Source of the DNA: Euzebyales bacterium
GTDB lineage: Bacteria > Actinomycetota > Nitriliruptoria > Euzebyales > JAHELV01
Assembly: GCA_036374135.1 (NCBI GenBank)
Contig: DASUUK010000076.1
Coordinates: 1-43,751 of the forward strand
Length of the DNA stretch: 43,751 nucleotides
Reading direction: 5' to 3'
The position numbers were made by a program, and so were the translations under genes. The notes under the pieces were generated by a model. It saw only the letters and a program-made list of their open reading frames with translations, had not been told where the DNA came from and did not search any database. Positions 13,718-30,175 of the stretch are shown here, piece by piece (position 1 is the first letter of the stretch; the number at the start of each line of letters is the position of its first letter).

Positions 13718-13893
13718 GCCGTTCCGGATTGGCGTGGGGCACGGTGTTCGTGCTGGTCGGCGTGTTCGCGCTGCTGGCCGATCTGGGTGTCTGGGAGACC
13801 CGGCCCGACTGGATGTGGCCGTTGTTCCTCGTGGCACTTGGCGTTGCGCTGGTCGTCGGCGGCCTGCTGCCCACCAGGGACAGGTCCTCCTGA
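13714..13893 (+). CDS. small 59-residue two-helix membrane protein
   Basis: A short gene whose ATG overlaps the LiaF-like stop (ATGA). It encodes 59 residues with two hydrophobic helices, WGTVFVLVGVFALLADLGVW and WPLFLVALGVALVVGGLLP, separated by a short charged turn. This resembles the LiaI/DUF5668 helical hairpin that also starts LiaF proteins. It is probably a subunit or regulator of the same membrane complex as the two genes before it. The coupled start and clean hydrophobic pattern make it likely real despite its size. Confidence 0.7.
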   Translation: MSRSGLAWGTVFVLVGVFALLADLGVWETRPDWMWPLFLVALGVALVVGGLLPTRDRSS

Positions 13894-14004
13894 GGGCGAT
13901 CTCCTGGCTCGTCGCGCACCCGTCGGCTCGCCGGGCGTCCCTCGCCGCGGCGTCGAGACGCGGCATCGTCGACGGACCACGCCGTGTCGCGCAGGATGGC
14001 TGTC

Positions 14005-14991
14005 ATGGAGCGGATCCAGCAGCTGTTGCGAGCGGTCGACCGGTTCCAACAACGGCACGGCGTGCCGGCGTTCGTGGTCGGGGTCGTCAAGAAGTTCGGT
14101 GACGACCAGGGCGGCAAGCACGCCGCGCTGCTGGCCTACTACGGCTTCGTCTCGCTGTTCCCACTCCTGCTGGTGCTCGGGACCACGATGGCGTACGTCG
14201 TGGAGAACGACCCGGATCTGCAGCAGCGTGTGATCGACGCGGTGGTGGCGCAGTTCCCGGTGGTGGGCCTGCAGTTGCGGGGCAGCATCGGGACCATCCG
14301 GGGGTCGGGGCTCGGGCTGCTGATCGGGGTGCTCGGCACGCTCTGGGGCGGTCTGGGCATCACCCAGACCGCGCAGGACGCGATGAACGCGGTGTGGAAC
14401 GTGCCGAGGAGGGATCGTCCCAATTTCTGGTTGCGGCTGGTGCGCAGCGGTGGCGTCCTGCTGTTGGCAGCCGCGGCGCTGTTCGGCGCGACGTGGCTCG
14501 CGGGCCACGGCGCCGTCGTGCCCGGTGTGCTGGGCTCGTTGGTCTCGCTGTTGGGTTCGCTGCTGGTCAACATGGTGATCGTGGCGGCACTGTTCAGGCT
14601 GCTGACCGCGGTTGACGTGTCCTGGCTGCGTCTCGCGCCCGGTGCTGCCGTCGCGGCGGTCGCGTGGAGCATGGTCCAGGCCCTGGGCGTCCTGATCGTG
14701 ACGCAGCAGGTGGCGCGGGCGAACCTGCTGTACGGGGTCTTCGCCGTCGTCCTCGTCCTGTTGTCATGGATGCTGCTGACGGGCCGGATCCTGATCTACG
14801 CCGCCGAGATCAACGTCGTCCTCGCGCGGCGTCTGTGGCCCCGGAGCCTCCTGCAGCCGCCGCTCACGGCGCAGGACATGCGCGCGCTCACCGCTCTCGC
14901 ACGGACGGAGCAGCTGCGACCGGAGCAGCACGTCGAGGTGACGTTCAGGTCGGGGCCCGACGAGACCGACGACCCTCGACCGCCGGGCTGA
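14005..14991 (+). CDS. YihY/BrkB-family integral membrane protein
   Basis: A 328-residue protein with about six transmembrane helices. The family signature near residues 35-60 is KHAALLAYYGFVSLFPLLLVL, followed by LGTLWGGLGITQTAQDAMNAVWNVPRR and an ending with RILIYAAEINVVLARR. Members were once called ribonuclease BN but are now regarded as membrane proteins of unclear function, possibly transporters or envelope factors. The ATG at 14005 has AGGA eight bases upstream; GTG 13984 and ATG 13996 are alternatives. Its stop codon lies within the first copy of a 36-bp direct repeat. Confidence 0.9.
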   Translation: MERIQQLLRAVDRFQQRHGVPAFVVGVVKKFGDDQGGKHAALLAYYGFVSLFPLLLVLGTTMAYVVENDPDLQQRVIDAVVAQFPVVGLQLRGSIGTIRGSGLGLLIGVLGTLWGGLGITQTAQDAMNAVWNVPRRDRPNFWLRLVRSGGVLLLAAAALFGATWLAGHGAVVPGVLGSLVSLLGSLLVNMVIVAALFRLLTAVDVSWLRLAPGAAVAAVAWSMVQALGVLIVTQQVARANLLYGVFAVVLVLLSWMLLTGRILIYAAEINVVLARRLWPRSLLQPPLTAQDMRALTALARTEQLRPEQHVEVTFRSGPDETDDPRPPG

Positions 14992-15016
14992 GCATGAAGG
15001 CGGCGTGACCGGAACG
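14981..15016. repeat. 36-bp direct repeat, copy 1
   Basis: This segment matches 17748-17783 at 34 of 36 positions, both differences being A to G. It spans the stop codon of the YihY-family gene. CGCCG at its left end can pair with CGGCG 20 bp further on, so it may form a weak hairpin. The two copies bracket the AhpD-like and flavin monooxygenase genes. Confidence 0.75.
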
Positions 15017-15054
15017 CCCGCGGCTGGCCAGCAACCACCCGTCCCGTGGAGGTG

Positions 15055-15435
15055 TCAGTCGGCGTTCGCAAACTCGCGGAACGCCTCGAGCGCTCGCGGG
15101 GCGTAGTCGCTGGCCGCTGGGCCACCGCCCAGGAGGATGGTGACGCTCAGGGTCTCGGCGACCTCCGCCTCGCTGGCGCCCCGCCGTGCGGCGCCGCGCG
15201 CGTGGTAGGCGATGCATCCCTCGCAGTGCTCGGACACAGCGAGCGCCAGGGCGATGAGCTCCTTGTGCTTCGCTGACAGCGCGCCATCTGTCATCGTGGC
15301 CTGCGAGGTGTCGAGGAACCCCTTGAACGCGTCTGGAATCTGCCGGCGCAACCGCTTGGTCGGTTCGCGCAGATCCCGCAGATACTGATGCGCGTCTGTG
15401 CCGTGGCTCGTACGGTGCTCGTTCGTGGCGGTCAT
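15055..15435 (-). CDS. carboxymuconolactone decarboxylase / AhpD-like protein
   Basis: A 126-residue all-helical protein of the CMD/AhpD family. The redox CxxC is C71-E-G-C74, with H78 in SEHCEGCIAYHARGAARRGA; the Glu upstream and His downstream form the AhpD-type relay. Such proteins act as alkylhydroperoxidases or as decarboxylases in aromatic catabolism; the CxxC favours the peroxidase branch. The ATG at 15435 has GGGAGG seven bases upstream. It is divergent from the flavin monooxygenase, with 317 bp between them, suggesting a shared regulatory region. Confidence 0.85.
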   Translation of the reverse strand: MTATNEHRTSHGTDAHQYLRDLREPTKRLRRQIPDAFKGFLDTSQATMTDGALSAKHKELIALALAVSEHCEGCIAYHARGAARRGASEAEVAETLSVTILLGGGPAASDYAPRALEAFREFANAD

Positions 15436-15752
15436 CTGCGGCCTCCCTGTTTCCGGGCCACCAACGACGGGCGGTCGTTGCCGCGCCGTCGCCGTCCGCG
15501 GCGCTCGGCGTTCCACCGCGGACTCCACCCACCATGTGACGCCCGGCGAGACGTGGCCGGGACCATCGTCCGCGCTCGATGGGGTCGTCCAGTCCGGTGA
15601 ACGATCGACGCCACGCTCTGGTTGGTCGCGCCGTCCCGGTCGTTCCCGCCCTTCGGTCAGATCCTGGCCGCTCACCACGCGCATGATCGAACATGGAGAC
15701 CGCGGGGCACACGACGGTGCGCGCTGACGCCAAGCCAGGGAGGACGGAGGCC
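15436..15752. other. 317-bp divergent intergenic region
   Basis: This stretch separates the AhpD-like gene from the flavin monooxygenase. It contains no coding pattern I trust. I could not pick out a convincing -35/-10 pair on either strand, although both flanking genes have strong ribosome-binding sites. Confidence 0.4.
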
Positions 15753-17744
15753 ATGCAGTTCCATCTGAACGGGTTCAGGTCCGGCGATCCGGCGGTCGCG
15801 GAAGCATCGGCGCCCGATGATGGGGCGGGACGGCCCGACGGCCTCCCCGACGAGGTGGACGTCCTGATCGTCGGCTGTGGTCCCGCGGGACTGACACTGG
15901 CCGCGCAGCTCGCGCAGTTCGGGTCGATCAGGACGCGGATCGTCGAGCAGAAGCCGGGGCGACTGCTGGTGGGTCAGGCCGACGGCATCGCCTGTCGTAC
16001 GCTGGAGATGTTCGGCGCCTACGGCTTCAGCGAGCGGGTGCTCAGGGAGGCCTACTGGGTCAACGAGACCGTGTTCTGGAAGCCGGACGAGCGGGATCCG
16101 ACCCGGATCGCGCGGAGCAGCAGGATCCAGGACGTCGAGGACGGCTTGTCGGAGTTCCCGCACGTCATCCTCAACCAGGCACGGGTGCACGACTTCTTCC
16201 TCGACGTCATGCGCAACGCGCCGACCCGGCTTGCACCCGACTACTCGCGGCGTCTGCTCGACCTTGCGATCGGGCCCACGTCATCCGTCGGGGACGGCGC
16301 ATCAGATGCGGGGGAGGGCGGATACGCGGCGACCGCCACGCTCGAGCGCCGTGACCCTCAACATGAAGGGGAGGTCGAGACCGTTCGGGCGCGCTACGTG
16401 GTCGGATGCGACGGCGCGCGGAGCACTGTGCGCAGGGCCCTCGGCCTGGCCCTCCACGGCGACTCGGCCAACCAGGCGTGGGGCGTGATGGACGTGCTCG
16501 CAGTGACCGACTTCCCCGACATCCGGCTCAAGAGCGTCATCCACTCGGCGAACGAGGGCAACGTCCTGATCATCCCGCGGGAAGGTGGCTATCTGGTCCG
16601 CCTCTACATCGAGCTCGACGAGCTCAAGGAGGACGAGCGGGTCGCGAACCGCAACATCACCGCCGACCACCTCATCGCCGCAGCGCAGCGGATCCTGCAC
16701 CCCTACACGCTGGAGGTGCACGAGATCGCCTGGTGGTCGGTCTATGAGATCGGCCAACGGCTCTGCGACCGGTTCGATGACGTCCCGGCCGATGAGATCG
16801 ACACCCGGCTGCCACACGTCTTCATCACGGGGGACGCCTGCCACACCCACAGCCCGAAGGCCGGCCAGGGCATGAACGTGTCGATGCGCGACAGCTTCAA
16901 CCTGGGGTGGAAGCTGGCGTCGGTCATCCTCGGGCGGTGCTCGCCACAGCTGCTGCACACGTACTCCGCGGAACGGCAGACCGTCGCGCGCGAGCTGATC
17001 GAGTTCGATCGGGAGTTCGCCGCGATGTTCAGCGCGCGGCCGAAGACCTCAGTCGATGACGATGGCGACGGCGTCGATCCGGCCGAGTTCCAGCGCTACT
17101 TCGTCCAGCAGGGCCGGTTCACCGCCGGGACGGCGATTCGCTATCACCCGTCGATCATCTCCGCGGAGCTGACGTACCAGCATCTGGCCGCGGGTTTCGA
17201 GATCGGCATGCGCTTCCACTCGGCGCCGGTCATCCGTCTCGCGGACGCCAGACCGGTCCACCTCGGTCACACCGTCGAGGCGGACGGCCGATGGCGCGTC
17301 TTCGCGTTCGCCGGCGCCGCCGATCCCGACGACCCGTCGTCGGCCATCCAGCGCCTGTGTGCGTACCTTGGCGGCGCACCCGACTCGCCTGTCGGGCGCT
17401 ACACGCCACCGGGAGCGGACAGTGATGCGGTGATCGACGTCCGGGCTGTGTTCCAGCAGGACCATCGCGAGCTCGCCGTCGCGGCGGTGCCCACCTTTCT
17501 CCGGCCCCGCAAGGGTCGGTACGGGCTCATTGACTACCAGAAGGTGTTCTGCGCCGACCTGCGCAGGTGCACCGACCCCGTGGTGCGGAGCGACACAGAC
17601 ATCTACGACCGGCGCGGCATCGACCGCGACCATGGCTGCGTGGTCGTCGTCCGCCCGGACCAGCACGTCGCGCACGTCCTGCCACTCGACGCCCACGCCG
17701 AGCTGGCTGCCTTCTTCGATGGCTTCATGATCCCGGCACGCTGA
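15753..17744 (+). CDS. FAD-dependent aromatic monooxygenase (3-hydroxybenzoate 4-monooxygenase-like)
   Basis: A 663-residue class A flavoprotein hydroxylase. It opens MQFHLNGFRSGDP, close to the start I recall for 3-hydroxybenzoate 4-monooxygenases. The FAD dinucleotide motif is VGCGPAGLTLAAQLA (near residue 36), the DG motif is VVGCDGARSTVRRALG, and the GD motif is ITGDACHTHSPKAGQGMN. The C-terminal 180 residues form the thioredoxin-like domain of phenol-hydroxylase-type enzymes. It should use NAD(P)H and O2 to add a hydroxyl to a phenolic ring; meta-hydroxybenzoate is the best guess, phenol possible. The ATG at 15753 follows a GGAGG box; an upstream ATG at 15693 is less likely. No ring-cleavage gene is adjacent. 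Confidence 0.85.
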   Translation: MQFHLNGFRSGDPAVAEASAPDDGAGRPDGLPDEVDVLIVGCGPAGLTLAAQLAQFGSIRTRIVEQKPGRLLVGQADGIACRTLEMFGAYGFSERVLREAYWVNETVFWKPDERDPTRIARSSRIQDVEDGLSEFPHVILNQARVHDFFLDVMRNAPTRLAPDYSRRLLDLAIGPTSSVGDGASDAGEGGYAATATLERRDPQHEGEVETVRARYVVGCDGARSTVRRALGLALHGDSANQAWGVMDVLAVTDFPDIRLKSVIHSANEGNVLIIPREGGYLVRLYIELDELKEDERVANRNITADHLIAAAQRILHPYTLEVHEIAWWSVYEIGQRLCDRFDDVPADEIDTRLPHVFITGDACHTHSPKAGQGMNVSMRDSFNLGWKLASVILGRCSPQLLHTYSAERQTVARELIEFDREFAAMFSARPKTSVDDDGDGVDPAEFQRYFVQQGRFTAGTAIRYHPSIISAELTYQHLAAGFEIGMRFHSAPVIRLADARPVHLGHTVEADGRWRVFAFAGAADPDDPSSAIQRLCAYLGGAPDSPVGRYTPPGADSDAVIDVRAVFQQDHRELAVAAVPTFLRPRKGRYGLIDYQKVFCADLRRCTDPVVRSDTDIYDRRGIDRDHGCVVVVRPDQHVAHVLPLDAHAELAAFFDGFMIPAR

Positions 17745-17747
17745 GCC

Positions 17748-17783
17748 CGCCGGGCTGAGCATGGAGGCGGCGTGACCGGGACG
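17748..17783. repeat. 36-bp direct repeat, copy 2
   Basis: Second copy of the element at 14981-15016, beginning three bases after the monooxygenase stop. Immediately upstream and overlapping, AGCCC and GGGCT (17744-17756) form a perfect five-base stem with a three-base loop, a possible transcription end signal without a T tract. Beyond it lies a decayed ArsR-type gene. Confidence 0.75.
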
Positions 17784-17884
17784 GGCGCGGAGTGCCGTGG
17801 CGGTCGGACGGTGACATCGGGGCCGGCACGGTGGAGTGCGTTGCCGAACCGGACGGCATCGGGCGCACGGGTGTCGAAGCCCCG

Positions 17885-18110
17885 ACGATCGCTTCGAGCT
17901 GCCCACGGTCGCCGAGGTAGGCGCGCGCCAGTGCGCCGAGTCCGTCGAGGGGCGTGGCGGCCACGTCCCGCAGGGCGGCCCACAGGTCGTCGACACGTTC
18001 GGATGCCAGCCGGTAGTGCACATAGGTGCCGGTGCGTCGCGTGGTGACGAGCCGGCGCGCGCGAGCGCGCTACTTCCTGCACCTGCGGGAGGTCAACCGC
18101 ACCGGGCCGG
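17885..18110 (-). pseudogene. decayed ArsR-family regulator remnant
   Basis: The minus strand encodes RRLVTTRRTGTYVHYRLASE (about 18064-18005) followed by ALRDVAATPLDGLGALARAY, the wing and C-terminal helix of an ArsR-type winged-helix protein; this particular form usually continues into a rhodanese domain. Upstream, LPQVQEVARSRA in another frame would be the recognition-helix region, and a TAG interrupts the main frame. No start codon or complete HTH survives and no rhodanese follows. The remnant stops within about 130 bp of the second 36-bp repeat. It lies downstream of the methyltransferase on the same strand and once probably regulated that metalloid cluster. Confidence 0.5.
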
Positions 18111-18325
18111 CGGCATGGCCGCGTGGACCGCCGACGGCTACGCACCGCCACCCTCCCGCTGGTCGGTCCGGGTTACGGCGTGCGGGACCGGCCACTGCTC
18201 GTTGTCCGCCAGACGTCCGAGTGGGCCGCCGGACACGTCCCGGCCTGTCGGTGTTCGCGGTGCGCGGCCTGAGCGGCCGCGATGGTCGTGCTCGAGGCCG
18301 GCTGCCGAGGAGGGTTGCGCCGTGC
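18111..18325. other. unassigned 215-bp stretch
   Basis: Between the methyltransferase stop and the ArsR remnant. Short high-GC open frames exist on both strands but none has a start, ribosome-binding site and recognisable domain together. It may be part of the decayed regulator. Confidence 0.3.
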
Positions 18326-19747
18326 TCACCGGGGCCTGCGGGCGCGGAAGTTGACCCCACGCGTGCCGAACTCGGCCACCTCCCTGCGGGGTCTGGCGGC
18401 ACCCTCGAAGATGTTGGCGCTCCACGTGATCTCGAAGTCCGTGAACCCGGCGGCCACGACCGTGGCCTTGAGCTCTGCCTCCAGCAGAGCCCCTGCGATT
18501 CACCCGGTCCACAGATCGATGTCGCGCTTGGCGTCCTCCGGGATCTCCCGCTCGACGGTGATGTCGGCGATCTGCAGCCGTCCACCGGGCCGCAGCACCC
18601 GGAAGATCTCCTCGAACACCAGCGACTTGTTCGGCGACAGGTTCACCGACCCGTTGGAGACCACCAGGTCGGCCCAGCCGTCGGAGATCGGCAGCGACTC
18701 CGAGAAGCCCGCGCGGAACTCGACCGTGTCGAACCCGGCCGTCGTGGCGCCGGCGCGCGCCTTGTCGAGCATCGCCTCGGTCATCTCGACGCCGATGACA
18801 TGGCCGGCCGGACCCACCGCCCGTGCCGCGATCAGCGTGTCGAGACCCGCGCCCGAGCCGATGTCGACCACGTACTCACCCTCCGTGGGCATGCCCATCG
18901 CGAACGGGTTGCCCGTCCCGGCGAACGACGCGATCACGTCGTCGGGTAGTCCGTCCAGCCACGCCTCGTCGTAGCCGTTGGTCGACAGCGCCGTCCGGCC
19001 GGTGTTGAAGTGATAGCCGCGATCGGGGTCGCGGGCGACGGCGGTGTACTCACGGGTGACCTCGTCGCGGAGGATCTGCACCGCGGCGTTGTCGTCGGAG
19101 AACCGTGACCGGATGAACGCCGGGTCGTCGCGCACCGTGACTTCGGGCACCACCGTGTACGTCGTGAACGTGCCCGTGTCGAGCACCTCGGTACCTTCGA
19201 TCACGCGGTCCCCGCCGGGCGCTCCCAGATCGCGGTAGGCCGACTCGGTCATGAGGAAGTACTGCTTCTCGCGGACCGAGTTCTTCGCCAGCCGGTGCAG
19301 CGTGATCACGTCCGGACCCGACAGCGTGGGGCGCTGGCCGACCTGTGTGAACAGCGCCTCGCCGGAGTGTGCGACGATCTTCAGCTTGAGGTCGCCGACG
19401 ACGCGGCAGGCGTTGCAGTTGCAGACCGAGTAGGCGCCGATCTCCACGAGCCGTTGCGCGAACGTGCGGAACAGTCCGCGCACACGGTCCACGAGGCTGG
19501 CGCCGCGCCGGCGCCAGATATCGGCGTCGCCGCTCTTGACCGCGTACAGGAACAGCGCGTCACCCTCGACCGCCGAGAGCCGCAGCGGCACGTCGATCTG
19601 CCGGATCAGGCTCTCCAGCAGCTCGCCGATGATTGTCTGGCTGTGCCGCAGCGCCGCGTCGTGCTCGATCATGAACTGCGTGTAGCCGCTGATGTCGGCC
19701 AACAGCAGCAGCACCGGCTGCGTCGAGCCATCGGTCATCGTCGTCAT
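18326..19747 (-). CDS. DUF2652 / ArsM-like methyltransferase fusion, predicted selenoprotein (Sec416)
   Basis: Read through TGA at 18502-18500 as selenocysteine, this is a 473-residue protein. Residues 10-190 are a DUF2652 cyclase-like domain (LLLLADISGYTQFM, VEGDALFLYA, VAHSGEALF) with a CxCxxC motif (CNCNAC). Residues about 255-473 are an SAM-dependent methyltransferase of the arsenite-methyltransferase type: VVDIGSGAGLDTLIAA, MTEAMLDKA, VVSNGSVNLSPNKSLVFEE, VLRPGGRLQIADI. At DIDLWTG-U-IAGALLEAEL the family normally has Cys, one of the arsenic-binding cysteines. After the TGA the same frame remains coding for 57 more residues with typical family sequence (FEGAARPRREVAEFGTRGVN) to a normal TGA. 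A nine-pair stem-loop follows the codon. The ATG has AAGGA six bases upstream. It sits 35 bp after a flavin reductase gene. Role in metalloid methylation is inferred. Confidence 0.8.
18470..18492 (-). promoter_or_regulatory. bacterial SECIS hairpin after the Sec UGA
   Basis: On the minus strand, GGGCTCTGC (18492-18484) pairs with GCAGAGCTC (18478-18470), nine pairs with one G-U, closing a five-base loop TGGAG. The loop begins 17 bases after the UGA and has G as its second base, as in bacterial SECIS elements that SelB reads. The spacing and loop agree with the known bSECIS pattern; the hairpin also overlaps coding sequence, as it must in bacteria. Confidence 0.7.
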
Positions 19748-19782
19748 CGGTGGTCCTTGCTTGGTGCGCGGGCTGCGGCCGG

Positions 19783-21186
19783 TCAGGTGACCAGCGGCTG
19801 GGAGCCCGGGTCGAGGACGGTGACCAGCCCGCGGGCGTAGGCGCCGATGGCCTCGCCGATGCCGCCGTGGAAGGTCGGGAAGGCGTAGATCATGCTGCGG
19901 AGGGTGTCGAGCGGTAGCCGGGCATGGACGGCCAGCGCCAGCATGCCCAGCGTCTCGCCGGCCTCGGGGCCGACGGCGGTCGCGCCGACCATCACGCGCT
20001 CGTCGCGGTCGACGACCAGCTTGAGGACGCCGGCGTTGCCGGGTCCGTGCAGCCACCCTCGGAAGGTGGCGGGCACCTGCTTGACGACGACGTCCACCGT
20101 GAGGCCCTGCTCGCGGGCTGCGGCCTCGGTCAAGCCCACCGCGCAGACCTCTGGATCGGTGAATGTCGCCCGCGGGGGTGGCCGGTCGTCGGCGGCGGTG
20201 GGCTCGAGCCGGAGGATGTCGTCGGCGACGATTGCCGCCTGGTGCAGCGCCATGTGGGTGAGCATGGCCGCGCCGGTCACGTCGCCCAGCGCCCACACGC
20301 CGTCGGCGACGCGACACCGCCCGTCGATGGGGACATGGCCGGCCGCCGGGTCCACGCCGACCGTGTCGAGGCCGAGGGCGGCGACGTCGATCGTCCTGCC
20401 TGTGGCGACCAGCAGCCGCTCGGCACGCACCGTCCCGTCGCCGGTGGTCACCGCGATCTGCCCGTCGCCGGCCGACACCTTCTGGACCGGAGATCCGGCG
20501 TGCACGGCGATGCCCTCGCCCGCCAGCGCCGCGGCGACGATGTCCGACGCCTCGGGCTCCTCGGCCGGCAGCAGCCGATCGTGCTGCTCGACGATGGTGA
20601 CCGCGGCGCCGTACCGGGCCAGCACCTGCCCCAGCTCGCAGCCCACCGTGCCGCCGCCGAGCACGATGACCGAGGTGGGCAGCCTCTCGGCCTGGATCAC
20701 ATCGTGCGTTGTCCAGTAGCCGACGTCGTCGAGCCCGGGGATGGTGGGGATCGCCGGCTGTGAGCCCGTCGCGAGCACCACCCCATGGCGGGCGGTGTAG
20801 GTGTCGTCGCCCACGGCCACGGTGCCCGGACCGGTGAGCCTGCCGTATCCGCGGACGAGCGTGCCGCCGCGGTCTTGGAACCGGGCGACGGCCGCGGAGT
20901 CGTCCCACCCGCCGGTGACCTCCTGCCGCACCCGTGTCGCCAGGAGCTCCCAGTCGGGCGTGACCTCGGCCCGCCCGGCAACGCCGTTGACGCGGCGCGC
21001 CTCCTGCAGCAGGTTCGCGGCGCGGATCATCAGTTTCGACGGCAGGCACGCCCAGTAGGCGCACTCACCACCGATCAGGTTCGGCTCGACGCCGACCACA
21101 TCAACGCCGGCGCCCAACAGCCGCAGTGCCAGATCCTCGCCGCCGGTCCCGACGCCGACCAGCACGACATCCGCCATGTGCTCCAT
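19783..21186 (-). CDS. pyridine nucleotide-disulfide oxidoreductase (MerA/LPD-like)
   Basis: A 467-residue FAD flavoprotein of the dihydrolipoamide dehydrogenase/mercuric reductase family. The FAD Rossmann motif is G11-V-G-T-G-G16, the redox-active disulfide is C42-AYWA-C47 followed by LPSK, the NAD(P) motif is VLGGGTVGCELGQVLARYG, and the second FAD motif is GVWALGDVTG. The C-terminal interface reads FPTFHGGIGEA; the usual catalytic His of the HPT motif is Phe, as in mercuric reductases, but the MerA cysteine pair and N-terminal metal domain are missing. It therefore reduces an unknown disulfide or electron acceptor. The ATG at 21186 follows a GGAGGT box. It leads an operon with the methyltransferase fusion 35 bp downstream, which suggests a reductant supply for metalloid chemistry. 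Confidence 0.88.
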   Translation of the reverse strand: MEHMADVVLVGVGTGGEDLALRLLGAGVDVVGVEPNLIGGECAYWACLPSKLMIRAANLLQEARRVNGVAGRAEVTPDWELLATRVRQEVTGGWDDSAAVARFQDRGGTLVRGYGRLTGPGTVAVGDDTYTARHGVVLATGSQPAIPTIPGLDDVGYWTTHDVIQAERLPTSVIVLGGGTVGCELGQVLARYGAAVTIVEQHDRLLPAEEPEASDIVAAALAGEGIAVHAGSPVQKVSAGDGQIAVTTGDGTVRAERLLVATGRTIDVAALGLDTVGVDPAAGHVPIDGRCRVADGVWALGDVTGAAMLTHMALHQAAIVADDILRLEPTAADDRPPPRATFTDPEVCAVGLTEAAAREQGLTVDVVVKQVPATFRGWLHGPGNAGVLKLVVDRDERVMVGATAVGPEAGETLGMLALAVHARLPLDTLRSMIYAFPTFHGGIGEAIGAYARGLVTVLDPGSQPLVT

Positions 21187-21404
21187 CCCGCCACCTCCAG
21201 GCCGTCCGACCCACGGCCGGCTGACCCCAGCCGGGGGCACCCTCACGCCGTGACGATACTCCACCACCCGCCGTGGCGACCCCGAAACGTAGGAAATGGC
21301 GCATCCCGTCCCTTGCCATCGCAGGCCGCAGGCGGGCGCCGCACACCGCATGCGCGCGTCGGGGGTCGACGCCGTGCCCGCACACCCGCCTCGTCTCACG
21401 AGCG

Positions 21405-21597
21405 TCAGGCGCGGGCGGCGGGTGATGAGGTACCGGCGCAGCAGACCCCGCGGGCCGCGTCGACCGCGCCTCGCCTGCCGCTCGGCGAAGTCGTCGGCGC
21501 CGACGACGAGCGCGAGCTCGTCCGCCTCCGCGCCCCACTCGCGCACCCACGCCTCCAAGGTCGCGATCTGCCGCCAGACACGCGCGTGACGCCGCAC
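21405..21597 (-). other. possible small coding remnant upstream of the flavin reductase
   Basis: From an ATG at 21597 the minus strand reads MRRHARVWRQIATLEAWVRE and on through a helical, Arg-rich stretch to about LTLVRRG, with codon third positions almost all G or C. The frame then stays open, with poorer codon use, into the flavin reductase. It may be the start of a decayed gene. I recognise no family. The rest of 21187-21404 shows nothing I can name. Confidence 0.25.
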
Positions 21598-21623
21598 GCG
21601 TGCGTGGAAGAATGCGGCTCCTC

Positions 21624-22499
21624 ATGACGCAGCCGGACGAAACCGTGGACGACGACGGACACACCGGGCACGAGGACCGTGCCGAGGACATGGACGTCGG
21701 TCCCGGGACCGGACACGGCGCCGCGTGGAGCGCGGCCGCCGACGACTACGACCGCTGGTGGGCGGACCTCGGCGCGCCGGTCTGGGATGTGCTGCTCGAC
21801 GCAGCGGCGGTAACGCGCGGCACGCGGCTGCTGGACGTTGCGTGCGGGCCGGGGTGGTTCCTGCGCATGGCGGCTGACCGCGGCGCTGTCGTGGCTGGGA
21901 TCGACGCCGCCGAGCGGATGGTCGAGCTCGCGCGGGCGCGGGTGCCCGAGGCCGATGTCCGCCTCGGGGGCATGGAACGGCTGCCGTGGGCGGCGGCCAG
22001 CTTCGATGTCGTCGTCGCGATCAACGCGATCCAGTTCGCCGACGATCCGGTGGACGCGCTCGCGGAGATCGCGCGGGTCGTCGAGCCAGGCGGCAGCGTC
22101 GGGGTGTGCGTGTGGGGTCCCCGCGAGGACCGGCACGTGCTGGACATCGACCATGCCGTCCGCGCGCTCGTGCCCAACGACGCCGATGCGCCCGACGAGC
22201 CGGAGGACGACCACCCGTCCGTGCCGGACTGGTCCGGCCCCGGCGCAGTCGAGGGGCTGATGCGCGATGTCGAACTGACGCCGACCGACGCGCGGCTGGT
22301 CGACACGCCGCTGCTCCTGCACGACCGCCAGATGCTGATCGAGGCGTTCCTGTCGGACCTGCAGCACTCGGAGGCGGCGCACGTCGCCGGGCTCGACGCG
22401 GTGCGGGACGCGATCGGAGCGGCGGCCGCCCCCTACCGCCGACCCGACGGGTCGTACCTGATCCCCAACACCTTCAGGACGGTCATCGCCACCGCCTGA
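21624..22499 (+). CDS. class I SAM-dependent methyltransferase
   Basis: A 291-residue Rossmann methyltransferase of the UbiE/Methyltransf_11 type. After an acidic 30-residue lead, WSAAADDYDRWW precedes motif I LLDVACGPGWFLRMAADRG, then motif II VAGIDAAERMVELARARVPE, motif IV FDVVVAINAIQFADDP, and VVEPGGSVGVCVWG. It would methylate a small molecule, which the sequence does not identify. The ATG at 21624 is preferred because GGAAGAA lies eleven bases upstream; an ATG at 21612 is in frame. It is divergent from the flavin reductase and convergent with the DUF389 gene. Confidence 0.85.
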   Translation: MTQPDETVDDDGHTGHEDRAEDMDVGPGTGHGAAWSAAADDYDRWWADLGAPVWDVLLDAAAVTRGTRLLDVACGPGWFLRMAADRGAVVAGIDAAERMVELARARVPEADVRLGGMERLPWAAASFDVVVAINAIQFADDPVDALAEIARVVEPGGSVGVCVWGPREDRHVLDIDHAVRALVPNDADAPDEPEDDHPSVPDWSGPGAVEGLMRDVELTPTDARLVDTPLLLHDRQMLIEAFLSDLQHSEAAHVAGLDAVRDAIGAAAAPYRRPDGSYLIPNTFRTVIATA

Positions 22500-22657
22500 T
22501 GTGGCCACCCGGCGCGTTGGTCACCCTGCGCGTCGTTGAGCAGCCGGAGCACCTGCTCCTCGCCGGTCGGATCGAGGACCCACCGGCGAACACCGACGCC
22601 GTGGCCGTCACCTTCGCGGGAGCCCCGGCGACCGCCGTCGGAGCCATGCCGTGTCCG

Positions 22658-24268
22658 TCAGGGGCGGTCTCCTCCGATGACGTGCACGACCTCCGGTACG
22701 AACCGCATCTCGACGACGACCTCGCGATCGAGCTCCTCGACCAGCCTGGCGTGCAGGACCTCAGGCGCCGGTGGCGTGCCCGCACCGTGCACGGTGATGC
22801 TGACCCGGTCGCCCTCCACCTCGAGCGCCGCCACGCTGATGCCGTCGGTGCCGTCGAGCCACGCGCTGGCCGCGCGCTGGGATGCCCGCAGTGCCGCCGC
22901 GTCGTCGATCAGCCCCTTCGTCGTCAGGCCCAGGGGGATCAGCAGCAGGACGACACCGGTCGCAACGGTGGCATAGGAGGTGCGCACACGCCGGCGTTCG
23001 CGCAGGAGCCGGGACCAGTCGACGTATCCGGTGAGCAGGAACACCGCGCTGGCCATCGCCACGATGGCCGTCAGGTTTGTGACGAACAGCAGCATGGCGC
23101 CCGCCGCCTGCTCGTAGCTGCCCGCGTAGAGCGTCACCCCGGTCACGGCGAGCGGCGGTACCAGGGCGATCGCTACGGCCACGCCCGGCAGCGCCTCGGA
23201 GACGTCGGAGCGGCTCACGGCGAACGCACCGGCAGCTCCGGCGGCGACCGCGATGGCCAGATCGAGCAGGTTCGGAGCCGTACGTGACGTCACCTCGTCG
23301 TTCGCGACCACGGTCGGCAGGTCGGGCACGAAGCCGGTGAGCACATAGGCCAGCGCGACCGCCGCGACCGTCGCGACCAGCACGATGCCGCCCGAGCGCA
23401 GCGCCCCAGCCGTCCACCCGCGCAACACCGCCGACGCCGTGGCGAGGATCGGCGTCATGAGCGGTGCGATCAGCATCGCGCCGATGACGACGGCCGTGGA
23501 GTCGGCGGCGACGCCGAACGTGGCGAGGGCCGTCGACAACGCCATGAGGATGGCGAAGCGGAACAGCCGCCGGCGCCCGTCGTCGCCGTCGAAGAACAAC
23601 GTCGCGTCGATCCGGTCGCGGTCGACCTGACCCATCTGCCGCGCGGTCAGGTGGCCGGGCAGCCGTCCGCGTGGCGGTGCGTCGGCGCGGGACGCCGCGG
23701 CGGTCATCGTGTCGGCGCGTCCGATCGCCGCCGCCACGAGCGATGCGCGGAAGATCCACAACAGGCCGGTGCCGACCACCACGACGCGCACGGTCGCCTC
23801 GGGGAACAGCGCGACGACGATCGCCAGCGCCACGGTCAGCACACCTCGGGCCAGCCGGTCATACCGCCGTTCACGTGCCGCTGATCCGAACGCCTGCACC
23901 GACTTGACGGCACCGTAGGTGGCGATCAGCGCGGCAGCCACCAGCCCCACCGACTGCGACGTCTCGGACGGCCACGCGACCATGGCCACTCCCGCCGCCG
24001 CCGTGAGCCCGCTGCGCCACCAGGGTGCACGATGCCCTCCAACGAGGCGCGGCGCATGCTCGAGCACCGCGATCGCGATCAGCGTGACGCCGACGATCTC
24101 GTCGAACAGTTCGGTCACCCCTGAGCGCGCGGCCACCAGCACGACGATGCCGACGGCGGCGATTGCGCCCCGCCACACCACCGGGCTCGCGGCCAGCGCA
24201 CGCCCGACACCGTCGCGTGCGCGCCGCAGATCCCATCGGTCGCCGCGGTCGGCTGCGTCGGGTCGCAT
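22658..24268 (-). CDS. HdeD-like plus DUF389 integral membrane protein
   Basis: A 536-residue membrane protein with two modules. The first 170 residues hold about six helices in the pattern of HdeD/DUF308 proteins (WRGAIAAVGIVVLVAARSG, WWRSGLTAAAGVAMVAWP). Residues about 215-450 are the DUF389 domain (VIGAMLIAPLMTPILATASA, ALPGVAVAIALVPPLAVTGV), followed by a soluble C-terminal domain. DUF389 proteins are widespread with no defined function. The fusion of the two modules is uncommon as far as I can recall. The ATG at 24268 follows a GTG three codons upstream that could also serve. Confidence 0.8.
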   Translation of the reverse strand: MRPDAADRGDRWDLRRARDGVGRALAASPVVWRGAIAAVGIVVLVAARSGVTELFDEIVGVTLIAIAVLEHAPRLVGGHRAPWWRSGLTAAAGVAMVAWPSETSQSVGLVAAALIATYGAVKSVQAFGSAARERRYDRLARGVLTVALAIVVALFPEATVRVVVVGTGLLWIFRASLVAAAIGRADTMTAAASRADAPPRGRLPGHLTARQMGQVDRDRIDATLFFDGDDGRRRLFRFAILMALSTALATFGVAADSTAVVIGAMLIAPLMTPILATASAVLRGWTAGALRSGGIVLVATVAAVALAYVLTGFVPDLPTVVANDEVTSRTAPNLLDLAIAVAAGAAGAFAVSRSDVSEALPGVAVAIALVPPLAVTGVTLYAGSYEQAAGAMLLFVTNLTAIVAMASAVFLLTGYVDWSRLLRERRRVRTSYATVATGVVLLLIPLGLTTKGLIDDAAALRASQRAASAWLDGTDGISVAALEVEGDRVSITVHGAGTPPAPEVLHARLVEELDREVVVEMRFVPEVVHVIGGDRP

Positions 24269-24293
24269 CCGTGTCACGCGCCCGCGTGGCCGC

Positions 24294-24452
24294 TCACAGG
24301 CGACCGCCGCGTTGGGGAGCCACAAGTGCCATCCACCCCCGGAACAGCGGGCGCGCCGCGAGGATCGACGGATCGCGTTCCAGCAGTTGATCGACACGTT
24401 CTCGGATCATCTCGCCGGCGTCGGCGGTGACCTCGGCCCGGCACACGCCCAT
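24294..24452 (-). CDS. hypothetical 52-residue ORF
   Basis: The ATG overlaps the stop of the PucR-like remnant (TGATG). It encodes MGVCRAEVTADAGEMIRERV, then a basic segment RDPSILAARPLFRGWMALV. No domain is recognised. The coupling geometry and helical composition argue for coding, but it lies in a region of decayed genes and could itself be a fragment. Confidence 0.35.
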   Translation of the reverse strand: MGVCRAEVTADAGEMIRERVDQLLERDPSILAARPLFRGWMALVAPQRGGRL

Positions 24453-24927
24453 CAGTCGTCGTGCAACGCCAGGAGGTCCAGCGCGATGGACGCGCGCAGT
24501 CGCTCGGAGTGGCGCGTGAGATCGAGCCCCGTCAGTTCCTCGGTCTTGTCGAGGCGGTACCGCAGCGTCTTGTGGTGCACGGGGATCAGCTCGGCTGCGT
24601 TCTTCTGCTAGCAGTCGCGACCTCCTCCGTCTCCGAGCAGCCCAGCAGGCAGATCGCGCCGAGCGCGGCCTGGCCGGCGCGCACCTGCTGCCCGAACGCC
24701 GGCTCGTGCTGGGGGTCGACCCGCAGGCGGACGACCGATGTGTCGTCACCGTTGTCGCGGAGCAGGTGCGTCGTCGGCAACGTGGGAGCCTCGAGGCGCT
24801 GTAGCGCGGCGTTGAGGACGGCATCGACCTCGGCGACAGAGGCCGCTGCGCGCAGTGCGGGCACGGCGTCGGTCGGCACCGCAACGGGGTCCGCCGCGGC
24901 CATGACGGAACCTTTCTGCTCGGGCAC
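24452..24927 (-). pseudogene. PucR-type regulator remnant, frameshifted and truncated
   Basis: The last 45 codons encode NAAELIPVHHKTLRYRLDKT followed by EELTGLDLTRHSERL, the conserved C-terminal HTH of PucR/CdaR-type regulators. In the same frame a TAG at 24610-24608 precedes it. The frame just upstream, from an ATG at 24927, reads LRAAASVAEVDAVLNAALQR and ends ALGAICLLGCSETEEVATA; one indel near 24605 would join the two. Even joined, the product is only about 155 residues, far short of the usual 400-500, so the N-terminal sensory region is gone. Confidence 0.55.
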
Positions 24928-24948
24928 CGTCGCCTCCCATCCTCGCCG

Positions 24949-25640
24949 TCAGCGACCACCTGCGAGCAGCGTCTTCATGCTAGAGCCGGACTCGAAGGCG
25001 CGATAGGCCTGCACGGCAACCTCGAGCGACATCGGTGATCACGGCTGACGGGTCGAACGCCGCGCCCAGTGGTCCGTCGCCACCGACGGCGTCGATGACG
25101 GCGTCCGCTCCGCAGCTGCGGTGAGATCGTGCACGAGCCGATCCAGCTCGTCGGGGTCCGAACCGATGCCGCCCAGGCGGTCGGCCATCACACGGCGTTC
25201 GGCACGTGGCTCCGAGACGACCACGGCCGCCGCACCGCAGGCCTGGCCGGCCAGGTTGGCCATCTGCCCGACGGGTCCGACACCGATGACGGCGACGACA
25301 TCACCAGGTCGCATGTCGGCCCGTCGTGCCGCCGCGTACCCGGTCGGCAGTGCGTCGGTCAGCAGCACCGCACGGTCCGACCGCACCCCGTCCGGCAGCA
25401 CACCGAGGCTGACGTCGGCGAACGGGACGCGCACGGCCTCGGTCCGCGCACCGGCCAGCGGCGGGCCGAACACGCAACCGCCGACCATGAACCTGCGCTC
25501 GGTGCATTCCCAGTGGTCGCCCCGGCCGGCACCACCAGCACAGGCCGCACGCCAGGATGTCGCTGCCGACGACGCGGTCGCCGATCTCGAGCCGGCTACC
25601 TGCCGTTCCCGGACGACGCCGATCCGCGTCGGTCGAAGGA
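24949..25640 (-). pseudogene. zinc-type alcohol dehydrogenase remnant
   Basis: Pieces of a medium-chain dehydrogenase lie in order in several minus-strand frames: GDRVVGSDILACGLCWWC (structural-zinc cysteines), GGCVFGPPLAGARTEAVRVP, VLLTDALPTGYAAARRADM, the Rossmann motif VVAVIGVGPVGQMANLAG, then ADAVIDAVGGDGPLGAAF in another frame, and a C terminus EVAVQAYRAFESGSSMKTLL ending at a TGA at 24951-24949. The N-terminal 60 or so residues with the catalytic zinc Cys are missing. At least three frameshifts separate the pieces, so this cannot give a working enzyme. Confidence 0.7.
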
Positions 25641-25679
25641 CCGGGTCTTCTGAGCGACGGCGGCGCAGGACCACGCGAC

Positions 25680-26600
25680 GTGACCATCGACGCGCGCGAC
25701 GACGACCGCTACGCCGTGCTCAACGCCGTCGTGCTCAAGAAGATGGCCACGGCCCCGATGCTGCCAGGTCGATCATCGCCGGGCTCGCCGACGACGGCCT
25801 CGTCGCCGCCGTCGGCGAGCAGGTGCCGACCGACGCGGCCGAGCCTGCGCTGGCCGAGGCCGCAGCCGCCCGCTACGCCGACCTGCGCGCCGATCCGGCG
25901 ATCGCGGACCTGCACGGCGACTTCGAGCGCATCAACCGGCGGTTCCTGGAGGCGATGACGTGGTGGCAGCGGGCCGACGTCGGTGGACAGACGGTGCCCA
26001 ACACCACCACGACCCCGCCTACGACGCCGTGACCTACCGGGAGCACCACCGCATCCCGCACGACCTCAACCGCCGTCGTCGCGCAGACGATGGTCTTCGG
26101 CAACCTCGGGGCGCCTTCGGGCACCGGCGTCGCATTCGAGTCGGCGACGCGATGTGGTTGGACGGCGCGACCGGCGAGGGGTACGTCGGCGCTCTGGCCA
26201 TGAGCCGGCCCGCCACCTCGAACGTGCACCTCGCCACGCTGCTGCAGCACGCCGACGAGCAGGTCGACGTGACGCTGTTCGCGCGCGCGACCACGGAGGA
26301 CCAGATCACCGACGCGGTGCGTCGGGGCGCCGACGGCATCGTCACCAGCGTCGATGACGTCTTCGCCACCAGCGGGCCTTCGACGACGCCATGGCCGTGC
26401 TCACCGACCAACTGGTGCTCGACCGTCGCGACCTGTCGGCTTTCGAGGAGCTCGTCGCCGCCCAGTTCACGCCGCTGCTGCGCCGTGCCGCCGACGCGCC
26501 GCTGACGTTCGGGCGATCGACCTCCTCGCCGACGAGGCGCGGGAGATGCTCACGCAGACCGAGTTGCTGACGACGCATCCCGGCCATGTCCGCCGGCGCC
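25680..26600 (+). pseudogene. PEP-utilizing dikinase (PPDK-like) remnant
   Basis: Plus-strand fragments in different frames resemble a pyruvate, phosphate dikinase-type enzyme: an N-terminal helical part (YAVLNAVVLKKMATAPM, then ADLHGDFERINRRFLEAMTW), AQTMVFGNLGAPSGTGVAFE (ATP-grasp segment), GDAMWLDGATGEGYVGALAM (phosphohistidine-domain end), TLFARATTEDQITDAVRRGA (PEP-binding barrel start) and AIDLLADEAREMLTQTELL. Hundreds of residues are missing between the segments and none of the frames is continuous. The family call is moderate because the pieces are short. Confidence 0.5.
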
Positions 26601-26696
26601 GCTGTCGAGCGCGGGCACGATCTCGCCGCGACCGATGATCTGTGCGATCGTGTGTCGTCGATCACTGTGCATACGCGCACACATCCGGAGGATCCC

Positions 26697-27113
26697 ATGG
26701 CCAGCCGACTGAATCCGTACCTGACCTTCCGCGGCGATGCCCGCGAGGCGATGGAGTTCTACCAATCCGTCTTCGGCGGTGAGCTGACGATGAACACGTT
26801 CAAGGAGTTCGGGATGTCCTCGGACCCGAGCGATGACGACAAGATCATGCACGCCCAGCTCGAGGCTGAGAACGACATGACGCTGATGGGCGCCGACTCG
26901 CCGGCCGGCATGGAGCTTCAGCCGGGCAGCACGATCAGCATCTCGCTGAGCGGCGACGACGACGCGCTGCTCGCCGGCTACTTCGAGCAGCTGGGGGAGG
27001 GAGGGACCGTTCGCGAGCCGCTCGTGCAGGCGCCCTGGGGCGACAAGTTCGGCATGCTCACCGACAGGTTCGGGATCGACTGGCTCGTGAACATCAGCGG
27101 CCAGGGGGCGTAG
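26697..27113 (+). CDS. PhnB-like VOC-superfamily protein
   Basis: A 138-residue glyoxalase-fold protein of the PhnB/YjdN type. It shows NPYLTFRGDAREAMEFYQSV (residues 6-25), GGELTMNTFKEFGMSS, MHAQLEAENDMTLMGADSP, and APWGDKFGMLTDRFGIDWLV near the end. Members are small dimeric proteins without an assigned reaction. A GGAGG box lies six bases before the ATG at 26697. It appears intact beside several decayed genes. Confidence 0.88.
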   Translation: MASRLNPYLTFRGDAREAMEFYQSVFGGELTMNTFKEFGMSSDPSDDDKIMHAQLEAENDMTLMGADSPAGMELQPGSTISISLSGDDDALLAGYFEQLGEGGTVREPLVQAPWGDKFGMLTDRFGIDWLVNISGQGA

Positions 27114-27237
27114 CCGCCGCCACCGCGGATCTCACTCGGATATCACGGCCGGGGTAGGCGGGTCACCATGCCGCGCCACTCCAGTCACATCACGCCAACC
27201 AGCGGCCGCGGTGTGCGGGTTGCGGGTGATCTCCGGC

Positions 27238-28062
27238 TCACAGGATCGGCGTGCGCGGAAGTCCGGACCGTACCCAGTCACGGGCGAGTTCGAGTGCGAA
27301 CGCGTCGCGGTCGACGACGTGGAGGTCATAGGCGATCACGTCGCCGGTGGCGTCGGTCCGTTGTCGTTCAACCGGTACGTCGGGCAGCAGCGAGTCGACG
27401 ATCTGCTGCACCTGGCTCATGGTGAGCCCGCCCTCGTCGATCCGGATGCAGCGGTCGATCCAGCGGTCTTCGAGCCAGGCTCTCAGGAGCGGCACACGGA
27501 CACCGACCTTGAGAGCCTGCTCGCCCCCCGCGTTCGCCCACTGCGGACTGCTGACGACCTCGTACCAGATGTCGATCTGCCGATCGATCTCCGCATCGAC
27601 ATCCTGCGACGCGCGCTTCTTGGCCAACGCGCGTCCGAACGCAGAGAGCACGTCGTGCGCCTCCGACCAGGCCGTCGACCACAGCGGCTGGCGTCGACAT
27701 CCCGGCGAACCGCCCACCACCGTCCCGGAACACGAGGCGCCTCATGGCTGGCCAGATCTTCCGGCGTCTTGAACACGCCGGCGAGGTACTCGCCGCCGAT
27801 GTCGACGCGGAACCGCTGGATGGCGTCGCCCGGCCTCTCGGCTGGGGACTCGTCGTGGCCGAAGGCGTCCATCTGCGAGGGTGGCCACGGTGCCTCGGGA
27901 TCGAGCAGAAAGGCGAGCACCGGCTTGGCCGGGGGCTCGATCGCGGCCTCGAACTCACTGCTCCATGCCGATGACGTCATGGCCCAGGCGGCGCAAGGCT
28001 GTGTCGACCGTTGCACGATGGTGGGCGAGATCGCGGAGCGTCGATGACAGATACACCTTCAT
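27238..28062 (-). pseudogene. decayed DUF4062 gene
   Basis: The start is well preserved: a GAGGAGG box seven bases before the ATG at 28062, then MKVYLSSTLRDLAHHRATVD, the signature opening of DUF4062 proteins, ending at GMEQ and a TGA. The following frame gives PVLAFLLDPEAPWPPSQMDA and GEYLAGVFKTPEDLASHEA, the next part of the family, so roughly 45 residues are deleted plus a shift. A third frame (27720 to 27238) reads SAFGRALAKKRASQDVDAEI and DRWIDRCIRIDEGGLTMSQV to a normal stop. DUF4062 is a TIR-like fold found at the N terminus of NLR-type and other putative immune proteins. It lies 157 bp downstream of the FHA-TIR gene on the same strand. Confidence 0.65.
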
Positions 28063-28219
28063 CGCCTGCCTCCTCGCCCAGCCACGGCTGGTTGCGCGTG
28101 CTGCAGTGAATCACGAAAGTCCCTCTGCCGTCGTCCGCCGACGTGGGAGCAGGGCGCAATGCGCCCGATTCGGATGCGTCAGGGTTGGCGCGGTCGCCGT
28201 CGACGACGGGCGTGGGAGC

Positions 28220-29299
28220 TCAGATGCCTTTCTTCAGGCCCGCTCGCCTCAACGCCTGCCCGACACCGACGACGACGATGGACGCGGCGAACACGCCCCA
28301 GCCGATGAACGGCGGAGGGATCCCACCACCACCTATCGACGGGTCGTTCACCTCGGCGAACCCCAGGTAGGCGAACAGGGCGAATCCCACGATGCATCCG
28401 ATGGCCCCGATCGCGCTGATGACCGAGCCGATGGCGATGAGAACCTTGCCCGGTCTGCCCTCTCGACCGGCTCGGGCGGCGAGCAACAGTGCATCGTCGA
28501 GGCCTGCCAGCTGCCGGTTCCGGCGTGCGGCGTCGCGGCGTTCAGTGAGCGGCAGTTGCTGGACGCCGCTGAGGATCATTCTCAACTCGTCCGGATACGG
28601 GGCATCGTCTACGACCACGGGTATGACCTTCAGCCCGAGACGGTCCGCTGCCTGGACCTCGCGGATGACCCACCGACTGCGCATGGAGTGGAAGCTGACG
28701 ACGAGCAGCACGATCCAGGCCGCTTCGAGGGCGCGCATGAGTTCGCCGTGCCACTCCTTGCCCCCGGCGATGCCTGCCTCGTCGATCCACACGTTCCACC
28801 CGCGGCGGCGGAGGTGGTCGGCGATCATGCGCGCCGCGGTCTTGTCCTCGGAACTGTGGCTGACGAAGATCGGGACCTGTGACAGCGGTACGGTTCGTGC
28901 CGTGGCGACAGGGGCATCACGCGGCGCGGCGGGCAGGTCGTCCGCTCCCATCTGATCACGTGTGGCGGACAGTCCGCTTCGGGTGGAGGCAGCGGGCACT
29001 TCGACGACCGCTTCGACGGGCCCGAACCGGATCACGTCGCCGTCCGACAGATCGACCCAGTCGGTTGCCGGTCGGTCGTTGACGTGCGTGCCGTTCTGCG
29101 ACCCGAGGTCGCGGACGCTCACGCGATCTCCGTCCCAGTGGAGCTCGGCGTGACGCCGGCTGACGTACTCGGAGGCGATCGCCACCCCCGCGGCGGGGTC
29201 GCGCCCCACGATCGAGCGTCCGACCGGCAGGCGGTGGGTCGCGCGTGCCTCAGGGGGAGATTCGACCCGGATCACGGCTGGGTCACGATTGGTGGTCAT
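28220..29299 (-). CDS. FHA-TIR-membrane protein
   Basis: A 359-residue protein with an unusual domain order. Residues 1-102 form an FHA phosphothreonine-binding domain with the key residues G32-R33, S47-R-R-H50 and the G66-SQNGT turn. A 40-residue linker leads to a TIR domain (about 143-255): PIFVSHSSEDKTAARMIADH, GWNVWIDEAG, and S-R-W210-VIR-E214, the WxxxE containing the likely catalytic Glu for NAD hydrolysis. Two transmembrane helices follow near residues 298-325 and 335-355, so the TIR and FHA parts face the cytoplasm. Bacterial TIR proteins act in antiphage defence or NAD-derived signalling. Binding of a phosphorylated partner through FHA would be the trigger, which is inference. It is divergent from the toxin-antitoxin pair and upstream of the DUF4062 remnant. 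Confidence 0.85.
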   Translation of the reverse strand: MTTNRDPAVIRVESPPEARATHRLPVGRSIVGRDPAAGVAIASEYVSRRHAELHWDGDRVSVRDLGSQNGTHVNDRPATDWVDLSDGDVIRFGPVEAVVEVPAASTRSGLSATRDQMGADDLPAAPRDAPVATARTVPLSQVPIFVSHSSEDKTAARMIADHLRRRGWNVWIDEAGIAGGKEWHGELMRALEAAWIVLLVVSFHSMRSRWVIREVQAADRLGLKVIPVVVDDAPYPDELRMILSGVQQLPLTERRDAARRNRQLAGLDDALLLAARAGREGRPGKVLIAIGSVISAIGAIGCIVGFALFAYLGFAEVNDPSIGGGGIPPPFIGWGVFAASIVVVGVGQALRRAGLKKGI

Positions 29300-29537
29300 C
29301 GCGCCATCGCTCCATCCAGCGCGGTGTGGGCGGCGTGGGACCTTGACGGCATCGTGTCAGGTGCTGGATACCACACCCCGCCGCTGTCGGCGTGTCATCG
29401 AGGTGATACAGCGACACCGCTCCCTCGCCTCACCTCGGCAGCGTGCGACGCGATCGCGCCGCGGCCCTCGCCTCACGGCAGTGTCCAGACGGCGGCTGGC
29501 GCGCCGCTGACTGGCCCGGGTGAGTGGACTAAGTCGT

Positions 29538-29771
29538 ATGACTACGTCTGTTGGGGTTCACGAGGCCAAGACGCACCTCAGTCAGCTGCTGCGCCGCGTT
29601 GCCGCAGGTGAGGAGATCACGATCACTCGCCGGGGCCGTGATGTCGCGCGCCTCGTTCCTCCCGTCCGTCGGGCACGCCGCCGGCTCGGGTTCGACCGCG
29701 GACGGTTCGTCGTGCCAGACGACTTCGATGCGCCGCTGCCCGACGAGCTGCTGGAGGCCTTCGAACGGTGA
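29538..29771 (+). CDS. Phd/YefM-family antitoxin
   Basis: A 77-residue type II antitoxin. It begins MTTSVGVHEAKTHLSQLLRR, the Phd/YefM DNA-binding fold, followed by VAAGEEITITRRGRDVARLV, and a C-terminal tail (VVPDDFDAPLPDELLEAF) of the kind that wraps the toxin. It would neutralise the PIN toxin next to it and repress their shared promoter. The ATG at 29538 is preferred to a GTG at 29520 because the fold starts right after it. The stop overlaps the toxin GTG by four bases. Confidence 0.88.
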   Translation: MTTSVGVHEAKTHLSQLLRRVAAGEEITITRRGRDVARLVPPVRRARRRLGFDRGRFVVPDDFDAPLPDELLEAFER

Positions 29772-30175
29772 GACTCCTGCTCGACACCCACGTGCTCCTG
29801 TGGGCGGCGGTGGACCCGGAGCGGCTTGGAGAGGTGGCCGGCGTGCTCGAGGACGCCGACAATGAGGTGCTTGTCTCGGCCGCCAGTTCGTGGGAGATCG
29901 CGATCAAGTACGGACTCGACAGGTTGCCGTTGCCCGAGCCGCCCGAGCGCTACGTCCCACACGTGTTCCGCGAGCTCGATGTCACGCCGCTGGGCATCGA
30001 GCATTCCCATGCGCTGGCGGTCGCCGCGCTGCCGCCTCACCATCGAGATCCGTTCGACCGCATGCTCGTTGCGCAGGCACAGCAGCTGCGAATCCCGATC
30101 GTGACGACGGATGAGATGCTCGACGACTACGACGTTGATGTCCTGCTCGTGGGACGAGCCCAGGCCCTCGACTGA
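29768..30175 (+). CDS. PIN-domain toxin (VapC-like)
   Basis: A 135-residue PIN-domain RNase. The acidic catalytic set is complete: D6 in LLLDTHVLLW, E43 in SSWEIAIK, D94 and D97 in HHRDPFDRML, and D115 in VTTDEML. Such toxins cut tRNA or rRNA in a magnesium-dependent way when free of antitoxin. The GTG start overlaps the antitoxin stop, so the pair is translationally coupled. The gene ends about 70 bp from a truncated DHFR-like gene on the opposite strand. Confidence 0.88.
   Translation: MRLLLDTHVLLWAAVDPERLGEVAGVLEDADNEVLVSAASSWEIAIKYGLDRLPLPEPPERYVPHVFRELDVTPLGIEHSHALAVAALPPHHRDPFDRMLVAQAQQLRIPIVTTDEMLDDYDVDVLLVGRAQALD

Follow-up and report, generated by a model that had tools for sequence, protein, structure and literature searches.

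To our knowledge, the bacterial TIR effectors known so far are triggered by nucleotide signals, by nucleic-acid-loaded partners or by STAND sensors. A TIR domain fused to a phosphothreonine reader would make protein phosphorylation the step immediately before the destruction of NAD+, and an FHA-TIR protein would be a small, defined protein for studying kinase-triggered cell suicide. Among FHA proteins, TB39.8 is FhaA, a partner of housekeeping kinases. A number of reports touch on the two domains: FHA and TIR have been listed separately among effector domains (PMC7159879, PMC8195603), a survey of TIR proteins makes no mention of FHA (PMC7075850), and the KKP kinase-kinase-phosphatase defence module carries FHA fused to a kinase (PMC11341870). 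Our literature search for the terms 'FHA-TIR' and 'TIR-FHA' found neither. Here we describe a gene encoding both domains in a stretch of 43,751 nucleotides from a Euzebyales bacterium, referred to below as the window.

Results

The FHA-TIR gene and its product

The gene and the parts of its product are placed in the window as follows:

28220..29299, minus strand: gene of the FHA-TIR protein with two transmembrane helices, 359 aa (basis: ORF, Pfam and coding-type codon GC)
29021..29212, minus strand: FHA domain, residues 30-93 (PF00498, 6.4e-18)
28880..29020, minus strand: linker, residues 94-140, 47 aa, containing Thr106, 114, 133 and 136 (basis: sequence)
28529..28870, minus strand: TIR domain, residues 144-257 (PF13676, TIR_2, 9.6e-23; same place in the whole-genome search)
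28658..28672, minus strand: W210-x-x-x-E214 with the putative catalytic Glu (the protein's only WxxxE; aligns with AbTIR and BtTIR)
28346..28453, minus strand: predicted transmembrane helix 1, residues 283-318 (hydropathy; helix in a low-confidence AF2 model)
28244..28315, minus strand: predicted transmembrane helix 2, residues 329-352 (hydropathy; helix in the same low-confidence model)

The reading frame extends from an ATG at 29299 to a stop at 28220. An earlier sequence-only reading had given these coordinates, which the ORF bears out, and had left the strand unstated; it is the minus strand, the plus strand at 28220-29299 holding another, stop-containing frame. The GC content at the three codon positions (0.72/0.51/0.82, in a window of 71% GC) follows a coding pattern, and the ATG is preceded, at a distance of about 10 nt, by a ribosome-binding-like GGAG. 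Scans for promoters and terminators found none. That reading had also proposed the order FHA, TIR and two C-terminal transmembrane helices, with which Pfam and hydropathy agree, and had called the FHA residues and the WxxxE Glu intact, as they are in the alignments, W210..E214 being the sole W-x-x-x-E.

The FHA domain scores 65 bits with PF00498 (Pfam cut-off 20.7), and the residues that contact the phosphopeptide (G32-R33, S47, H50 and N69-G70) are kept in the alignment. By its profile score and its Arg/Ser/His/Asn motif, the domain is thus a putative phosphothreonine reader. Among PDB sequences it matches best the FHA domain of M. tuberculosis TB39.8 (5.9e-15).

The TIR domain reaches 81.4 bits with PF13676, where the Pfam cut-off is 28, and keeps the motifs FVSHSSEDK, VWIDE and W210-VIR-E214. 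In the alignments E214 is paired with the WxxxE Glu of AbTIR (8g83) and BtTIR (7uxr), both NADases, and of CRISPR-associated Cat1, and W210..E214 supplies the aromatic-xxx-E signature of TIR NADases. Since these motifs are kept and E214 aligns with the NADase Glu, it is plausible that the domain is catalytically competent; a scaffold TIR would also be compatible with the sequence.

The hydrophobic peaks of the C-terminal part lie at residues 286-304 (KD 2.55) and 332-350 (1.85). The single-sequence AF2 model is poor (pLDDT 48), and its low-confidence succession of beta strands, an alpha/beta domain and helices 283-318 and 329-352 is the same as the domain order. Basic residues precede helix 1 and follow helix 2 (RRAGLKKGI) and the inter-helix loop is acidic (EVND), which by the positive-inside rule suggests that both ends of the protein are inside and that FHA and TIR would thus be cytoplasmic.

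Two-helix membrane proteins act in other conflict systems, and a Streptomyces plasmid pairs TIR with a SLATT/DUF4231 two-helix gene beside MoxR and CHAT. This, together with the fact that no cognate kinase was identified beside the window gene, speaks for a phosphate-independent FHA that would serve as a dimerisation or intramolecular module, the trigger being another one, such as a disturbance of the membrane to which the two helices would respond. Such an arrangement appears improbable to us, given that the phosphopeptide-contact residues are conserved and that the C-terminal helices, compared with the SLATT/DUF4231 models, gave no Pfam match of the kind that marks SLATT two-helix effectors. 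The Streptomyces locus itself (NZ_CP108601.1, 2117-6297) reads SLATT/DUF4231 - TIR - MoxR - hypothetical - CHAT-TPR and resembles the conflict systems of PMC7159879.

Neighbouring genes and kinases

Three features adjoin the gene:

27238..28062, minus strand: decayed DUF4062 gene (PF13271, 2.6e-6; low end approximate)
29520..29771, plus strand: Phd/YefM antitoxin, divergent from the FHA-TIR gene (PF02604, 6e-12)
29768..30175, plus strand: PIN toxin (PF01850, 1.9e-13)

The DUF4062 remnant is on the same strand as the FHA-TIR gene, some 157 bp past its downstream end, and has a 35-aa N-terminus that matches PF13271 and is followed by a stop and frame shifts. Both this remnant and the adjoining toxin-antitoxin pair had been recognised in the sequence-only reading, and the profile matches substantiate them. 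The DNA of the PIN gene region is 81% identical to that of a site in a genome from the same genus. A broken neighbour raises the question of whether the FHA-TIR gene is itself a decaying, non-functional leftover, fused recently and by chance next to the dead DUF4062 gene, as its being a singleton in our sample might also suggest. The intact frame, the coding codon composition, the preserved motifs of both domains and the GGAG all argue against decay, and make it very unlikely.

The scanned neighbours of the gene are mostly metabolic and transport genes; farther away in the window lie genes for glyoxalase, VIT, DUF389, ABC sugar transport, a methyltransferase and a cyclase-AAA-TPR protein. The last of these (57-3287) has 1076 aa, combines adenylate/guanylate cyclase, AAA_16 and TPR parts, and weakly matches a zinc ribbon at its N-terminus. 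Among the selection of window ORFs that was scanned there is no kinase, adjacent or otherwise, and no genome Pkinase match falls on the contig, in line with the earlier observation that the window has no visible kinase gene. Nor did the scanned ORFs include a phosphatase or a recognisable defence gene beside the FHA-TIR gene, except for the Phd-PIN pair and the decayed DUF4062 gene. The genome as a whole has 16 Pkinase-family matches over the cut-off, eight of them at E<1e-39 and none on the FHA-TIR contig, and a kinase acting in trans on the FHA-TIR protein is possible. The only other TIR_2 gene of the genome, a 1470-aa frame (locus L050, C46) with TIR followed by a STAND-like ATPase region, looks from its sequence like a TIR-STAND protein.

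Rarity of the FHA-TIR combination

TIR_2 was found in 65 of the 396 same-phylum genomes. Among 101 distinct TIR ORFs, nearly all from these genomes and a few from outside (e.g. loci L032 and L052), FHA was present in one, the window protein alone. No other protein covering FHA and TIR was seen in about 1,450 different genomes, where the matches were FHA-only or TIR-only, and this count is a lower bound, since few candidates were scored per genome and divergent FHA-TIR proteins could be missed. The genomes comprised 396 of the phylum, 66 of the class, 294 of the phylum of the Isosphaeraceae relative, 375 of one family and 377 of one order; the wide searches scored five to six candidates per genome, and the search of one family was run without a positive control. 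A scan of genome contigs for a close homologue returned only an FHA-kinase protein, the search of viral contigs yielded none, and the phages and plasmids examined gave TIR-alone or FHA-alone matches, with the exception of the Ca. Chlorohelix locus described below. The gene is absent from three same-genus genomes, in which its flanking genes match isolated places and no single syntenic block. Taken together, the search results, the absence from these three genomes and the non-syntenic flanks show that the FHA-TIR gene is rare and patchy.

This distribution bears on whether the protein belongs to ordinary physiology, its FHA linking it to Ser/Thr kinases with housekeeping tasks in growth, envelope or division and its TIR tuning NAD or assembling membrane signalling complexes, with no part in phage defence. 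Mostly metabolic and transport neighbours, a mycobacterial TB39.8 as the closest solved FHA and a genome with many kinases would all fit such a role. A housekeeping gene, however, would not be expected to be absent from same-genus genomes and non-syntenic, and the FHA-TIR counterpart sits in a defence locus; we thus regard ordinary physiology as rather unlikely, while giving it more weight than the alternatives considered above.

A counterpart in Ca. Chlorohelix with its own kinase

In a relaxed-threshold plasmid search, plasmid NZ_CP128402.1 of Ca. Chlorohelix allophototropha (Chloroflexota) was found to encode an FHA-GAF-TIR protein, WP_341472282.1 (FHA 37-104, TIR 297-402, GAF between), annotated solely as a TIR protein. 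Its gene and the next one, a Ser/Thr-kinase-TPR gene (WP_341472231.1), share a 4-bp overlap. A near full-length PADLOC match to HmaC ends 71 bp upstream of the FHA-GAF-TIR gene, and beyond it there are matches to HmaB and HmaA (E=0). Within this locus (13167-28727), the FHA-GAF-TIR and kinase-TPR genes stand directly behind the Hma set, and the pair may be a kinase-TIR add-on to Hma that has so far gone unreported. WP_341472231.1 also matches the PD-T4-6 defence-kinase models, as any Ser/Thr kinase may. On a second Ca. Chlorohelix plasmid (NZ_CP128401.1, 2037-6227), a 1396-aa kinase-coiled coil-TIR-TM fusion adjoins two further Ser/Thr kinase genes and has FVHKE at the WxxxE position.

WP_341472282.1 and the window protein have in common an N-terminal FHA followed by TIR, with 32% identity in the TIR, 29% in the FHA and the aromatic-xxx-E kept; they differ in that the former has a GAF domain between the two, no transmembrane helices, an overlapping kinase gene and an adjoining Hma set. 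As the comparison consists of one locus, with about 30% identity per domain and a relative that has no helices, the two fusions may have arisen independently, and the membrane part is, as far as seen, specific to the window protein.

Discussion

In this study, we have described a gene whose product joins an FHA domain, a TIR domain and two hydrophobic C-terminal helices. The reading we prefer, to which we would give about an even chance, is that of a membrane-tethered TIR effector of the NADase type, gated by Ser/Thr phosphorylation. Of the phospho-triggered TIR effector proposed in the sequence-only reading, the domain assignment is upheld by Pfam, and the kinase-FHA-TIR logic is backed by the Ca. 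Chlorohelix locus and by the kinases of the genome; at the window gene itself, neither a kinase or phosphatase nor a close homologue was found. A search for the FHA-TIR order with an adjacent Ser/Thr kinase, which had been suggested together with that proposal, yielded it once, at the Ca. Chlorohelix Hma defence cluster. By analogy, this locus gives contextual support to a wiring in defence that would lead from kinase to FHA to TIR.

The trigger, NADase activity, membrane topology and immune role that we infer from the domains, motifs and helices would combine in the following way. The FHA domain would read a phosphothreonine that a cellular Ser/Thr kinase has placed on itself, on a partner or in the Thr-containing linker of the FHA-TIR protein. 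Once bound, the FHA would bring the TIR domains together, or set them free, on the inner side of the membrane, where the two C-terminal helices would act as the anchor and may aid oligomerisation. The clustered TIR domains would then cleave NAD+ through E214, resulting in NAD+ depletion or in an ADP-ribose signal; in this response to phage or stress, the cell would stop growing or die.

In a wider and more tentative view, which we consider possible and somewhat doubtful, FHA-TIR proteins would be recurrent but rare immune effectors linking Ser/Thr kinase signalling to NAD+ cleavage, with a Chloroflexota branch that has its own kinase in a defence cluster and a membrane-tethered branch, that of the window, which would use resident kinases.

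Comparison with known systems

With Thoeris ThsB, TIR-SAVED and the short Argonaute TIR effectors, the window protein has the TIR domain alone in common, its N- and C-terminal parts matching none of them, and no ThsA, SAVED or pAgo partner of the gene was seen. The ThsB_TIR score of the protein, 16 bits, falls short of the cut-off (21.2), and no ThsA-type (SIR2 or macro) domain occurs among the window ORFs scanned. FhaA (TB39.8), FhaB and GarA/OdhI share the FHA domain and have no TIR; with 47.6 bits to the NCBIfam FhaB model and 45.5 to OdhI, far under the family cut-offs of 125 and 200, the window FHA does not belong to either family. The KKP module also has an FHA, used there in phosphorylation-based defence, whereas that of the window protein is joined to TIR, and no kinase was identified nearby. 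AbTIR and BtTIR (8g83, 7uxr) differ in that the matched chains have no FHA and the overall similarity is low (E 2e-4 and 6e-6, respectively); what they share with the window protein is the TIR core and the position of the catalytic Glu.
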